A stretch of DNA of 64,000 nt from Desulfomonile tiedjei (GTDB lineage Bacteria > Desulfobacterota > Desulfomonilia > Desulfomonilales > Desulfomonilaceae), in the NCBI GenBank assembly GCA_016218715.1, contig JACRDG010000048.1, positions 62,001 to 126,000 of the forward strand, written 5' to 3'. A program made the translations under genes and the position numbers. A model generated the notes under the pieces. That model was given only the letters and a program-made list of their open reading frames with translations, did not search any database and was not told where the DNA came from. This document shows, piece by piece, positions 28,235-55,190 of the stretch. Positions within the stretch are counted from its first letter, which is position 1. The number at the start of each line of letters is the position of its first letter.

Positions 28235-30199
28235 GTGAAAAAAAAGACCACTGCTATCGGAATAGGCTTTTCCGTCCTCTGGTGCATCATCGCCGCGGTG
28301 ATCGTCTATAAAGTTCCCAATCTTTGCGAGACCCTCAATTTCAGGATCTACGACTGGAAGCTCCGCGTTGCCGGCCATGCTGAACCGAATCCTCTCATCG
28401 TTCATGTGGACGTCGATGACAAGGCGATCCACAAGTACCAGAAGGAATACGGGCAATGGCCGTGGGATCGATCCCTGAGCGCCAAGGTCGTCGAACGCCT
28501 TTCAGCCTTGGGCGCCAAGACTATCGTCTTCGACGTGCTGTACTCGACTCCGGGAAGGAGCGAGCAGGGAGATCAGGCCTTGTTCCAGGCCATAAAGGCT
28601 GCGGGCAACGTGGTCTCCCCGACTGCGGTCAAAACCACCTACGACGTCACCCGAATGCTTCCACCTTACAAGGAAGACAATCGCGGACACATACTGTACG
28701 ACAGGGCATGGGAGCTGCGAGTTCCGGATAGATTCCATCTTCCCCGCGTGGTCGAGTTGCAGAACCGCCTCCTGCCTCTCCCGGGGATCATCCGCGACTC
28801 GAGAAGCCTGGGGCACATCAAGGGAACTCCAGACTGGGACGGGGTATACCGGCGACTGCCGCTGTTGGTTCGCATTGAAGATCGTTGCGTCCCGTGCCTC
28901 AGTCTCGCAGCCCTGCAAGTGTATTGGAATCTGGAACCTTCGCAAATCACGCTCACCAACAAGGACTCGGTAGAGATCCAACACGACGGTAAGACCGTGA
29001 GGATCCCCGTGGACTCCCACGGGGCCATGCTGGTCCGATGGGGACCTATATGGGAGAGCTTCGAGAATTATTCCGTACTGGATATTTTGAGCGAGACACC
29101 CGATGAGGCACGCCAATCGCGGTACAAGAACAAGATTGTCGTGATCGGATTCACGGCAACGGGAAGTACGGATCTCGGGGTTACCCCGATAGAGGCGTCG
29201 AGTCCCTTGAGCAGGATCCATTCCCACACGCTGAATACGATCTTGAGGCAGAGCTTCATCACGGACGTTCCGTCGTTTCCCATACCACTTATTCTGTCTG
29301 TTATCGTGACCATCGCCTTCAGCGTTGTCGCGATGCGATTCCGTCTGCAAATCGGCGCTGTGACTTTCCTCGCGATACTCGTCCTCGGGTTCGCCGCGGT
29401 ATTTCTCGCTTTTAGCCAGGGGGCTTACGAAGTGGGAACCGGTGAATGGCTGATCGTCTTCCTTCCCCCGGCCGTGGTGTGCCTTGCCATCCGCGGCGGG
29501 TCTATCGAATTGCGTGCTGCTCGCGTTTCCCGCACCATGGAGCGGTACATCGACCGTGACGTCCTCGACAAGATCCTCCTGAGTGGCGCGAAACTGGATA
29601 TTACAGCCAAGAGGACCGAACTGACCGTGGTCTTCGTCGATATACAAGGCTTCTCGAAGGTTTCGGAGACGATGTCCGTCGAATACGTTCACCGTTTCTT
29701 GAACGACTTTTTCCAACGCATGACCCGAATCGTCTTCGACCACCACGGCACGGTCGACAAGTTCCTCGGAGACGGCCTGCTGGCGTTCTTTGGGGACCCG
29801 ATCCCGCTGGAGAATCACGCGGAGTCCGCAGTGAGGGCTGCCCTCGATATGCAGCGGGAGATGGCGGAACTCAATGCAGAGTGGTCCGTGGCAGGTATCA
29901 GCGAAACGAAGGGCGGTCTCCTCGTTCGCATTGGCATCAAGACCGGCGTGGTGATCGTAGGCAATCTGGGGTCTGCGCGACGGGTCGAATATACGGTGGT
30001 GGGCTCGACCGTGAATATCGCCAGCCGGCTCCAGTCCATAGCGCCTCCGGGCGGCATCATCCTGTGCGCGCGTACCCGGGCAATGATACGAGGAAATATC
30101 GACTGTGACGGACCGGATCTGGTTCGGGTAAAGGGAATTGACCGCGATATTGAGGTATACCGCATCTATTCCGAGGCGATCCAGGCAACGAAAATCTAG
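28235..30199 (+). CDS. CHASE2-domain class III adenylate cyclase
   Basis: 654 residues from GTG 28235, with a longer open frame upstream. An N-terminal membrane helix is followed by an extracytoplasmic CHASE2 domain (VDVDDKAIHKYQKEYGQWPWDR; IVFDVLYSTPG), then three membrane helices (about 365-435) and a cyclase domain. The metal-binding aspartates lie in VVFVDIQGFSK and DKFLGDGLLAFFG. DKFLGD carries the adenine-selecting Lys, and VEYTVVGSTVNIASRL has the matching Thr and the transition-state Asn, so the product is probably cAMP. CHASE2 ligands are unknown. A cyclic-nucleotide-binding fusion protein is encoded at 52548. Confidence 0.9.
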   Translation: MKKKTTAIGIGFSVLWCIIAAVIVYKVPNLCETLNFRIYDWKLRVAGHAEPNPLIVHVDVDDKAIHKYQKEYGQWPWDRSLSAKVVERLSALGAKTIVFDVLYSTPGRSEQGDQALFQAIKAAGNVVSPTAVKTTYDVTRMLPPYKEDNRGHILYDRAWELRVPDRFHLPRVVELQNRLLPLPGIIRDSRSLGHIKGTPDWDGVYRRLPLLVRIEDRCVPCLSLAALQVYWNLEPSQITLTNKDSVEIQHDGKTVRIPVDSHGAMLVRWGPIWESFENYSVLDILSETPDEARQSRYKNKIVVIGFTATGSTDLGVTPIEASSPLSRIHSHTLNTILRQSFITDVPSFPIPLILSVIVTIAFSVVAMRFRLQIGAVTFLAILVLGFAAVFLAFSQGAYEVGTGEWLIVFLPPAVVCLAIRGGSIELRAARVSRTMERYIDRDVLDKILLSGAKLDITAKRTELTVVFVDIQGFSKVSETMSVEYVHRFLNDFFQRMTRIVFDHHGTVDKFLGDGLLAFFGDPIPLENHAESAVRAALDMQREMAELNAEWSVAGISETKGGLLVRIGIKTGVVIVGNLGSARRVEYTVVGSTVNIASRLQSIAPPGGIILCARTRAMIRGNIDCDGPDLVRVKGIDRDIEVYRIYSEAIQATKI

Positions 30200-51179: not shown

Positions 51180-51275
51180 TGGGGGTTGGAAACGAATGCG
51201 GGAAAACGGGGTTAAAGCTTGCCCGAAGAATTCATGATTCTCTGGTAGAGCTTTTCCACAATTTCATCGACTAAC
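51180..51275 (+). CDS. Possible 31-residue peptide
   Basis: ATG 51180 is preceded by GAAAGGAG at ideal spacing and a TATAAT (51112-51117). The frame encodes MGVGNECGKTGLKLARRIHD and 11 more residues, amphipathic at the end. It overlaps antisense the last codons of the primase-like gene (51212). The ribosome site is stronger than chance would suggest, but no -35 box or homologue is known to me. Confidence 0.25.
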
Positions 51276-52273
51276 TTGTCCATGAGTTCTGCGGAGAGTC
51301 TCGCGACGACCTTGCCCACAACTTCGTCGGCAAACGTCTCGCTCGATTCCTCGGCCATGACTTCGACGGTTTCCGCAGTGGACTCCTCTTTCACATCTGC
51401 GGAGGCGGCGGTGGTGACTTCGATGGTCAGCTCGCGAGGCGGCTGCGCGATAGCCGGGGAGGCGGCAGCCTGAGCACGCGCGACCGTGCTTTCGGCCACT
51501 TTGGTCTCAAGGTATGAGGCCACCTCTTCGTGATCGTATCCCGCGGCCTCCTCGAATTGAGATGCCGAGAGCTCGTCTTCCGGGACTGTTTCCTCGGCCT
51601 CCGCCACAGCCGCCCCCACACTACGTGCAGCGGACCGGGGAAACATGCTCACCAATTTCAGGTCCTCGAACTCCTCGAGATCATAACGAAACTCTGAATT
51701 GAGATACTTGATTCCGCACTTCACCACACTGGAAGAAAACTTGCAATTGTATGTTTCCGGCAGTCTGAGCATGGAATCCATGCCGATCGGCTTCTCGCAC
51801 AGAAAGTACGTGTTGATGGTGGTGAGCACCCGTTCAACACGGTTCGGATCACCGATTTCCCGCACTTTCTTGAGCAACCAGTAGAGATGCACCCCCCAGC
51901 CTGATTCGACGACAATCGATGGCGGCAGAGGAAAGCTTCTGACTGCCTTGGCAGCATAACTCATGTCGGAGAAATAGGAACTCTTGCCCGAAAAGCCGTC
52001 GGAATTTAGGTCGAGCCCGGCCCAGAGTGCGACCATATAGCGGATGTTCCATTTCTCGGGCTTCATGTTTTCATGAGGGCAAACGCCAAAGAACACGTGT
52101 TGATTATCCTGATAGACTTCTTTGGCAAGTGTTTCGAGCTTGGGAAAGTATCGGGTGCTGACTTTCCGGTCATGGGGCCGCAGGGTCATAACGCGAATGA
52201 AGCCGTCGCGAATGGAGAGATACTCCCCGAACAGCGCTTCCAAGAAATCTTTCCGAGAGGACTTGTTGTTCAT
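51212..52273 (-). CDS. RepB/AEP primase-like protein with altered active site and acidic tail
   Basis: 353 residues. Residues 1-190 match the archaeo-eukaryotic primase (RepB_primase) pattern: HVFFGVCPHE, MVALWAGLDLNSDG, LPLPPSIVVESGWGVHLYWLL, MDSMLRLPETYNCKF. Active members have D-x-D in the second motif (W-A-D-L-D). Here it reads GLD, losing the first metal-binding Asp, while the G-x-H-x-Y-W histidine is kept. The C-terminal 150 residues are acidic, Ala/Glu-rich and helical, ending LMDKLVDEIVEKLYQRIM, with no helicase or HTH. It may be a non-catalytic nucleic-acid-binding derivative. A promoter lies upstream. Confidence 0.65.
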   Translation of the reverse strand: MNNKSSRKDFLEALFGEYLSIRDGFIRVMTLRPHDRKVSTRYFPKLETLAKEVYQDNQHVFFGVCPHENMKPEKWNIRYMVALWAGLDLNSDGFSGKSSYFSDMSYAAKAVRSFPLPPSIVVESGWGVHLYWLLKKVREIGDPNRVERVLTTINTYFLCEKPIGMDSMLRLPETYNCKFSSSVVKCGIKYLNSEFRYDLEEFEDLKLVSMFPRSAARSVGAAVAEAEETVPEDELSASQFEEAAGYDHEEVASYLETKVAESTVARAQAAASPAIAQPPRELTIEVTTAASADVKEESTAETVEVMAEESSETFADEVVGKVVARLSAELMDKLVDEIVEKLYQRIMNSSGKL

Positions 52274-52547: not shown

Positions 52548-55190
52548 TCACGCGAAAAAGTCTGCCAGCACCCTGAACAACAGTACGGCAAAACCAAGTG
52601 CCACTATTCCGTGCGGAACATATTCACGCAGAGACTCTGCCAGAGAAATCTGGCTGCCGCGGCTGAGTTTCCATGATACTACCAGGGTGCCCAGGACGCC
52701 TATCACTATGAGTAGTCGCTGCAGGAAGAGCGTCCAGGCAGGAGGAATGGTGATCACGAGTTGCTGGAACAACTCGAAGTGGAATGTCTGCCACAGCAGG
52801 ATGGGAAAGTACACTCCCAGATGAATGAAATAATAGAGATGAAAAGCCATATAACCGGACAGCACCAGCGGAAGCAGCGCCAGACCGTAGCGGGCCAAAT
52901 TTTCACGGGCCGTTTCGCCGGAAGAGCGGGATGAAATGACCGAAGCGACTATTACGAGTCCGTTGGCCCCCACCACCACCAGCAGAAAGAACAGGCTGAA
53001 CCGCACGATCTCGGGGAGCATCCCCGCGTAAGCGAACCACGCATCGTACGTCCGTGAGTGACGGAGGAGGTCGCTCAGGAGTCCGCCCAACATACTGACC
53101 ACCAACACCGCTGTGATCGCCCCGGTCTGCTTCATCTCCCACAGTTCGCTTCCCGGTACTCTCACGTTGAGGTTTATTGCTGCGTACGGACAATTCTTTA
53201 TGCAGTTCGCGCACATTTTGCAGAACCGGTTGCTGCGGATCGAAGGGGCCACTTGACCGAACGGGCAGCCTTCCCGCTCCGCGGTTCCGGTGAAGCACTC
53301 GTTGGACGTGCATTGCGTCGAGCACAGGTTTCGGTCGGCTCGTAATTCGAATGGGGAGACCTTGGCAAACACCCCCATCATTCCGCCCAGAGGACACAAG
53401 TACCGACACCACGACTGACGCTCGAAAATCACCGATACCACCGCGGCCAGCAGAAGAATCGTCAGCAGCAATAGGCCTGTGTTGAAAGGTGAGCTTCTCA
53501 TGTTGGTAGCCGTCTCAAGCCAGATGATGAAAAGAGCGGAACCCGCGATAATGAGATCGCTGTGATGCTTGAGAGACGGAGGAAAAGGAATTTCCAACGC
53601 CAGGATCTTCTTGGCTAAGTGGCTCAAGGTCCCCATAGGGCATATGGAACACCAGAACCGGGCCCAGAGGAAGGAGCCGAAGACCATGGTGGGCCACCCA
53701 ATCGCCCAACTGAACAGGCCGCCGGGGTTCTGCATGGGATCCGCCGGCCCCAAGAAGAGCAAGACTACCAGAATGAAGAAGAACGGAGCCGCGGCGCTCT
53801 GAAAGATGGCAGGAAACAGCGGGCTCTTGAGCGCTCGCCTCAGAGCCGGAACCTGCATCAGGTTTATCTTCCCCTCCGGCTCTACGCTTCTCAGGTCGAA
53901 GTAGACGTGATTAGGCCGTATGTAGCCGTCATCGGAGAGGAGGACCGCTCGTTTGAGGGTCGTGGCAAGTTCCCGATCATTCCCCGGCCACGAATAGCTC
54001 ACGAGAACCTTGACCGTCTCTTTGGGGAGTCGCCGTGCATCCTTGTGAAGCTCTTGACAGTAATGGTTCACATAGTGCTCGGCCAGCAAAGGAATCTCTT
54101 TCTTGCGCTTGCGCAAGGGAGGGATGACAAGGGAATTCGTCAGCAGCCAGGAAAGGAGCGGATGCTTTTCTGCGGAGATTTCCGAAGCATCCAGGTTCGT
54201 CGTCCCGATCAGCCGAAAATCGATGTTCTGCAGACTGCTGCCGCCCACACGACGGAAGACTCCCGTCTTGAGCGCGTCGAGGAGCCGCGTCTGCATTACC
54301 GGCGTCAACTGTTCCACTCCCTTGACAAGCAGCGTTCCTTCCTCGGTCAACTCGAGGTAGCCCGGGGTCTCGATGATGGACTTCCCGTCTTCGCTGCGCG
54401 TCTCTGAGCCGAAGAATAGGTGCATCTGTCGTTCGGTCGCATCCGCGGCCGGTTCGGGGAGTTCGCAGTAATCGCCGACCGCGACTGTCTCACCGACCGG
54501 CCCCACGAGGTCCAGGTACAGGAAAACCCTCTTGTGAAACGGGCTCATGCCGTACAGGGCGTGAGCGAGAAACTCCTTACCCACGCCGGTCTCACCACCG
54601 ACGAGCACGTGCACGTCCGACTGCGCAAGTTGGTCCAGCGTTGTCTTGACCCGGCGTCGCACCGTTTCGCTGACGAAGTAATCAGGGAAGAGGTGTTCCT
54701 GACGGCTGATGAGGTTCTGGAGGGCTCGCTTCTTCTTGAGCTTCTTGTACACGCTCCAGTCGAGCCGTATTACCTTGCGTGCCAGGTTCTTTAGGACGCT
54801 GATCGCGCAGTCCGGCGACTCCCGAAGCAACTCCCCGAATTTTTCCCCGGGGATTTCAAGAACCCCACAGGCTTCAGCCGCCCGGACCGCGAAATTCTCC
54901 GGTGCAGGGCGCCCGGTGAAATAGCTCACCTCACCGATGAGGTCGCCGGAAGTGATGGTTTCTACCGGGATCTCCTGGCCGTCACGTTCCAGGAAGACCA
55001 CCGAAGCCCTTCCGGTGATCAGCAGACGGATCGTGTCTCCGCTGTCACCGGGCCGGACGATGAAATGGCCTGCAGCGTACTCGGTGAGCGAGCCTTTGTT
55101 CCAGAGTGCGTTTCGGACAGGCTCGGGGAGTTCTGCCAACGCGGTCGGTTCAGGCTCGCTGAAGGAAGTTTCGGATGTGGAGTCAGTCAT
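52548..55190 (-). CDS. cNMP-binding / degenerate sigma-54 AAA+ / membrane polyferredoxin fusion
   Basis: 880 residues. Residues about 20-140 are a Crp-like cyclic-nucleotide-binding domain (VRPGDSGDTIRLLITGRASV; SGDLIGEVSYFTGRPAPENF). Residues about 175-430 match NtrC-type AAA+ domains: Walker A GGETGVGKEFLAHALY is intact, but Walker B reads GTLLVKGVEQ (usually G-T-L-F-L-D-E) and the sigma-54-contacting GAFTGA loop is absent. Sensor II WPGNDREL remains. From about 465 come membrane helices with NapH/NosR-type cysteines (CSICPMG; CRYLCPLGG; CTSNECFTG; CKMCANCIKNCP). No DNA-binding HTH exists. It is probably a membrane redox protein gated by cyclic nucleotide and ATP binding. Confidence 0.85.
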   Translation of the reverse strand: MTDSTSETSFSEPEPTALAELPEPVRNALWNKGSLTEYAAGHFIVRPGDSGDTIRLLITGRASVVFLERDGQEIPVETITSGDLIGEVSYFTGRPAPENFAVRAAEACGVLEIPGEKFGELLRESPDCAISVLKNLARKVIRLDWSVYKKLKKKRALQNLISRQEHLFPDYFVSETVRRRVKTTLDQLAQSDVHVLVGGETGVGKEFLAHALYGMSPFHKRVFLYLDLVGPVGETVAVGDYCELPEPAADATERQMHLFFGSETRSEDGKSIIETPGYLELTEEGTLLVKGVEQLTPVMQTRLLDALKTGVFRRVGGSSLQNIDFRLIGTTNLDASEISAEKHPLLSWLLTNSLVIPPLRKRKKEIPLLAEHYVNHYCQELHKDARRLPKETVKVLVSYSWPGNDRELATTLKRAVLLSDDGYIRPNHVYFDLRSVEPEGKINLMQVPALRRALKSPLFPAIFQSAAAPFFFILVVLLFLGPADPMQNPGGLFSWAIGWPTMVFGSFLWARFWCSICPMGTLSHLAKKILALEIPFPPSLKHHSDLIIAGSALFIIWLETATNMRSSPFNTGLLLLTILLLAAVVSVIFERQSWCRYLCPLGGMMGVFAKVSPFELRADRNLCSTQCTSNECFTGTAEREGCPFGQVAPSIRSNRFCKMCANCIKNCPYAAINLNVRVPGSELWEMKQTGAITAVLVVSMLGGLLSDLLRHSRTYDAWFAYAGMLPEIVRFSLFFLLVVVGANGLVIVASVISSRSSGETARENLARYGLALLPLVLSGYMAFHLYYFIHLGVYFPILLWQTFHFELFQQLVITIPPAWTLFLQRLLIVIGVLGTLVVSWKLSRGSQISLAESLREYVPHGIVALGFAVLLFRVLADFFA

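Follow-up and report, generated by a model that had tools for sequence, protein, structure and literature searches.

Domain organization of the fusion protein

The DNA analyzed in this study, hereafter the window, is a stretch of 64,000 nucleotides from a Desulfomonile tiedjei contig. A single unbroken frame on the minus strand (52548-55190) opens with an ATG codon and encodes a protein of 880 amino acids, the start methionine of which is common to its orthologues. The features of the gene are listed below, with the residue numbers of the window protein.

52548-55190, minus strand: whole gene, 880 residues; CNB domain, pseudo-AAA+ domain with lid, polyferredoxin, and C-terminal transmembrane domain
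54819-55085, minus strand: Crp-like cyclic nucleotide-binding (CNB) domain, residues 36-124 (Pfam cNMP_binding, 4e-16; CRP chains in the PDB, 4e-09)
54156-54698, minus strand: sigma-54-type AAA+ core, residues 165-345 (Pfam Sigma54_activat, 3e-20)
54573-54596, minus strand: Walker A, GETGVGKE, residues 199-206, kept
54378-54398, minus strand: position of the GAFTGA loop, residues 265-271, here RSEDGKS, lost
54318-54323, minus strand: position of the Walker B acids, residues 290-291, here K-G, lost
53874-54113, minus strand: AAA+ lid, residues 360-439 (Pfam AAA_lid_14, 2e-18), with the sensor II residue Arg406 kept
53121-53864, minus strand: membrane polyferredoxin, residues 443-690 (Pfam Fer4_5, 5e-12)
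52551-53120, minus strand: C-terminal hydrophobic domain, residues 691-880 (hydropathy and alignment)

The original prediction, made from the sequence of this stretch, placed a Crp-like domain, an AAA+ domain of the sigma-54 type, and a ferredoxin of the NapH/NosR type in one protein, and the intact 880-residue frame and its Pfam matches bear this out. The Sigma54_activat match scores 73 bits against a curated cut-off of 20.2, and NtrC-family AAA+ chains are found in a sequence comparison with the PDB (best, 1e-26). AlphaFold models from an alignment of three sequences have a pLDDT of 39 for the full protein and 49 for residues 1 to 440, and the AAA+ fold and the interfaces are not visible in them; the CNB domain, modelled as a β-roll with pLDDT mostly of 60 to 90, is their only usable part.

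The first transmembrane helix (residues 462-480, by hydropathy) lies shortly past the AAA+ lid, and the polyferredoxin contains two Cys-Pro motifs, CxxCP at 514-518 and CxxxCP at 595-600, followed by two 4Fe-4S motifs (Cys623, Cys627, Cys632, and Cys642; Cys657, Cys660, Cys663, and Cys667). More transmembrane helices are indicated by hydropathy between the ferredoxin motifs and the C terminus, and alignment shows that the C-terminal hydrophobic domain is common to the stand-alone polyferredoxin relatives. Two histidine residues in these helices, His784 and His860, were considered as heme ligands and rejected, as they vary among the relatives. No FMN-binding domain was found in the Pfam search.

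Downstream of the gene, a protein of 353 residues (51212-52273, minus strand) has no significant Pfam or NCBIfam match; its N-terminal part, with the motif ESGWGVHLYW, resembles by eye an archaeal-type primase.

Motifs of the AAA+ domain

Motifs were assigned by alignment with three bEBP structures (3dzd, 1ojl, and 1ny5) and with five bEBPs encoded in the window genome. Counts for relatives refer to 45 homologues with the same domain order, a few of which have lost the N terminus at a contig end. As predicted, Walker A is intact, and its lysine is present in 42 of the 45. The predicted loss of the Walker B acidic pair and of the GAFTGA loop also stands: LFLDE of the activators is LLVKG in the window protein, and neither the acidic pair (0/45) nor GAFTGA (0/45) occurs in any fused relative. 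To these losses we add the arginine-finger motif, FREDLYYRL with its two arginine fingers, which reads KHPLLSWLL in the window protein; the second arginine finger is missing from all 45 relatives. The residues that ordinary ATP hydrolysis and sigma-54 contact require are thus lost throughout the fused family, arginine fingers included. Sensor II is a more qualified case: it is indeed kept in the window protein (WPGNDREL; activator pattern, WPGNxREL), but the arginine is found in only 12 of the 45 relatives, all within the clade of the window protein. Because most relatives lack sensor II, nucleotide binding by the AAA+ domain is not assured.

The prediction that there is no DNA-binding domain is likewise upheld, since Pfam finds no HTH in the protein and the AAA+ lid leads into the first transmembrane helix. 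The protein therefore cannot be a normal sigma-54 activator, in line with the original proposal: the Walker B acids, the GAFTGA loop, the second arginine finger, and the HTH domain are all missing.

The dead AAA+ domain is maintained by purifying selection. Six close pairs give dN/dS values of 0.05 to 0.13 for the AAA+ core, 0.01 to 0.07 for the lid, and 0.02 to 0.05 for the polyferredoxin. This selection, together with the absence of the same residues in all 11 families, rules out a recently decayed activator.

The same genome also encodes a 494-residue degenerate sigma-54 AAA+ protein (L006:2851-4332, minus strand, on contig C7 of the window genome, G000), in which Walker A and Walker B are both altered and GAFTGA is absent; no membrane domain is fused to it.

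Distribution and phylogeny

The 45 homologues come from the host family, Desulfomonilaceae, and from ten other families of Desulfobacterota. Within Desulfomonilaceae, 17 of 18 genomes have a match (one of them via a fragment alone), often with two to four paralogues, and none of the 24 genomes of the other family of the class has one; 15 additional fused sequences, from the ten other families, were found in a phylum-level search. The window genome itself has three copies, namely the window gene, a paralogue on contig C48, and a third that is apparently split across the ends of contigs C19 and C38. A frameshift or chimera joining two genes is ruled out by the identical domain order of 45 homologues in independent genomes. 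The phylum searches, run with either the whole protein or its membrane half as the query, likewise yielded no intact sigma-54 motor, either in the 45 fused proteins or in seven further long proteins. The comparison shows that the order of CNB domain, pseudo-AAA+ domain, and polyferredoxin is old in Desulfobacterota.

In the AAA+ tree, the 45 fused proteins group together, separate from the window genome's five activators (support, 100/98); when the LpxC fusions described below are included, the deep branching order is not settled. The 12 cysteine residues of the polyferredoxin are invariant in all 55 sequences compared, 10 stand-alone forms among them. The membrane-half search retrieved many stand-alone polyferredoxins of about 460 residues and also more distant relatives (L147-L153) with N-terminal YHS, cytochrome c, or cupredoxin domains, that is, periplasmic redox domains. 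Because these domains take the place of the CNB-AAA+ part in the distant relatives, the polyferredoxin can be regarded as a self-standing electron-transfer unit. Several of L147-L153 have the motif HLxHNxxHL in their C-terminal helices, and these proteins are possibly metal- or heme-linked electron carriers.

The sensory N terminus

In the window clade, the phosphate-binding cassette of the CNB domain still has its Gly-Glu. In CRP-type domains, the arginine of the PR[ST] motif holds the cyclic phosphate. In the window protein, this motif is replaced by APENF, and the arginine is also missing from the Desulfomonilaceae relatives in the alignment. L062 and the distant relative L112 have the canonical PRSA, and similar motifs are present in L066, L071, and L072. 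The N terminus of L114 combines an FHA domain with the CNB domain, and a Ser/Thr kinase gene lies 40 bp downstream, while L117 and L118 carry CNB and GAF domains. Across the aligned family, the N-terminal sensory part is thus variable, and the pseudo-AAA+ domain and the polyferredoxin are constant. The FHA and GAF domains fused at this end in several families suggest that a signal enters at the N terminus.

A receiver-AAA+-LpxC fusion in the same genomes

When other weak sigma-54 matches of the window genome were checked, a second fusion was found (L004:4842-6962, minus strand, corresponding to G000:C101:124841-126964). This protein of about 708 residues consists of a receiver, a sigma-54 AAA+ domain, and LpxC. 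Of 18 Desulfomonilaceae genomes, 17 encode it (homologues L130-L146), and no other LpxC was found in them. Walker A GK is present in 17 of 17 sequences, whereas the Walker B pair (0/17) and GAFTGA (0/17) are absent. At E <= 1e-120, the fusion is found in 2 of the 247 phylum genomes sampled, both of them Desulfomonilaceae. No paper describing it was found in the literature search. The arrangement points to lipid A synthesis being under two-component control via a pseudo-AAA+ relay, and its occurrence in the same genomes supports the idea of pseudo-AAA+ relays with nontranscriptional outputs.

Proposed function and alternative readings

As originally proposed, the fusion protein is best read as a signaling input that acts on an electron-transfer module; among relatives the N-terminal sensors vary, and the polyferredoxin keeps its 12 cysteine residues. 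The recurrence of the design in at least 11 families looks like real, conserved wiring from signal to electron flow and not an accident. We propose, with about even confidence, that this membrane protein carries electrons under the control of a cytoplasmic module of its own, in which a noncatalytic AAA+ domain relays the input to the polyferredoxin. A signal would arrive at the CNB domain (in relatives, at FHA or GAF domains as well). The AAA+ domain, with its Walker A kept, would still bind nucleotide and would serve, without hydrolysis, as an oligomerizing or conformational relay, possibly gated by the level of ATP or ADP. The changed assembly would then open or block electron flow through the polyferredoxin, which presumably links the quinone pool to an Fe-S or flavin partner in the cytoplasm. 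Quinol is taken to be the electron donor of the NapH membrane domain (PMC5928378).

The window gene lies 256 bp behind the genes of an apparent ECF-type metal transport set with a CbiO-like ATPase; these were rejected as operon partners, as the orthologues do not share them. No conserved redox partner gene was found next to the fusion gene, the neighbors of which differ from genome to genome, and this weighs against the proposed control module. Upstream of four window-clade orthologues (L089-L092), one of them from a 6.5-Mb genome in two contigs, the same strand encodes a histidine kinase and a sigma-54 response regulator that is intact, with GAFTGA and Walker B (L089:4080-6970; regulator, L089:5543-6970). 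This pair would fit the main rival explanation, with information flowing in the reverse direction, in which the polyferredoxin would sense redox state and act through the dead AAA+ domain, holding or poisoning a real sigma-54 activator at the membrane through mixed rings in one redox state of the quinone pool or of the Fe-S clusters. A regulator with 77% identity is also present in the window genome, but on another contig, and the linkage to the kinase and regulator is absent from this genome and from the other paralogue groups. Moreover, contacts between subunits and with sigma-54 use the L1 loop and the second arginine finger, both of which are lost, and the FHA and GAF domains of several families are of the input type. 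We consider this reversed flow of information unlikely.

The CNB and AAA+ domains could instead play no part in signaling and just multimerize the carrier or dock a cytoplasmic enzyme. The absence of the catalytic residues in 45 of 45 relatives would suit such a scaffold, as would a window clade without the phosphate-binding arginine and the loss of sensor II from most relatives. Retention of the Walker A lysine in nearly all members and the sensors added in several lineages (FHA beside a kinase, and GAF) are difficult to reconcile with it, and we judge a purely structural role improbable.

The original prediction further suggested that an adenylate cyclase encoded in the window could supply the ligand. 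The gene is real (29615-30163), but the link to the fusion gene is weak: the genome encodes 12 cyclases, and this one is more than 20 kb away. Divergent HAMP-type adenylate/guanylate cyclase genes adjoin the C48 paralogue (L001:7986-9791) and the PRSA-bearing distant relative L112 (L112:5837-7603), two family members that belong to different bacterial families. With cyclases beside these two members, cyclic nucleotides may serve the wider family, but by a rough count two such neighbors in some 35 loci are only weakly above chance (expected, about 0.2). Control of electron transfer by cAMP made by the window cyclase and bound to a CNB domain with APENF in place of the arginine motif is very improbable.

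Comparison with known systems

The AAA+ core and lid, Walker A, and sensor II of the window protein are like those of bEBPs such as NtrC, PspF, and ZraR; it differs from them in lacking the Walker B acids, GAFTGA, the arginine-finger motif, and the HTH domain and in being anchored in the membrane. Some bEBPs are also without GAFTGA (NtrC of Caulobacter and Rhodobacter and a bEBP of Vibrio cholerae), and these are DNA-binding proteins that regulate sigma-70 promoters (PMC10274813). The window protein shares with them the loss of the sigma-54 contact loop, but has a redox membrane domain and no DNA-binding domain. The CNB domain matches that of CRP/FNR proteins by sequence; here again the HTH domain is missing and, in the window clade, so is the cyclic-phosphate arginine.

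The membrane half has the same arrangement as NapH, NosR, and CcoG, in which transmembrane helices with two CxxCP or CxxxCP motifs are followed by two 4Fe-4S motifs. It scores 47 bits against the NapH model TIGR02163 of NCBIfam, far below the curated cut-off of 213, and is classed from its sequence as a NapH/NosR-type polyferredoxin in the broad sense. The window protein adds an N-terminal cytoplasmic sensor, an AAA+ domain, and C-terminal helices to this unit, and it lacks the periplasmic FMN domain of NosR and RdhC.

We found no paper on the order of CNB domain, pseudo-AAA+ domain, and polyferredoxin in a search that lay mostly outside the subscription literature. The parts are known and the combination appears to be new, and there is a real chance that the relay principle itself is new. 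The sigma-54 AAA+ domain is familiar as a motor of transcription, and here the fold is conserved, the motor is lost, and the domain is joined to a respiratory-type carrier. A broader generalization, to which we give somewhat less than even confidence, is that the sigma-54-type AAA+ domain, once deprived of hydrolysis and of its sigma-54 contact, became a general nontranscriptional relay in Desulfobacterota, connecting CNB, FHA, GAF, or receiver domains to electron transfer or lipid A synthesis; the LpxC fusion would test the same idea on an enzyme for which an assay exists. If the proposed control module is real, electron flow in these bacteria would be controlled posttranslationally by second messengers, phosphorylation, or nucleotide level, and a sigma-54 interaction domain alone would be insufficient to name a protein a transcriptional regulator.
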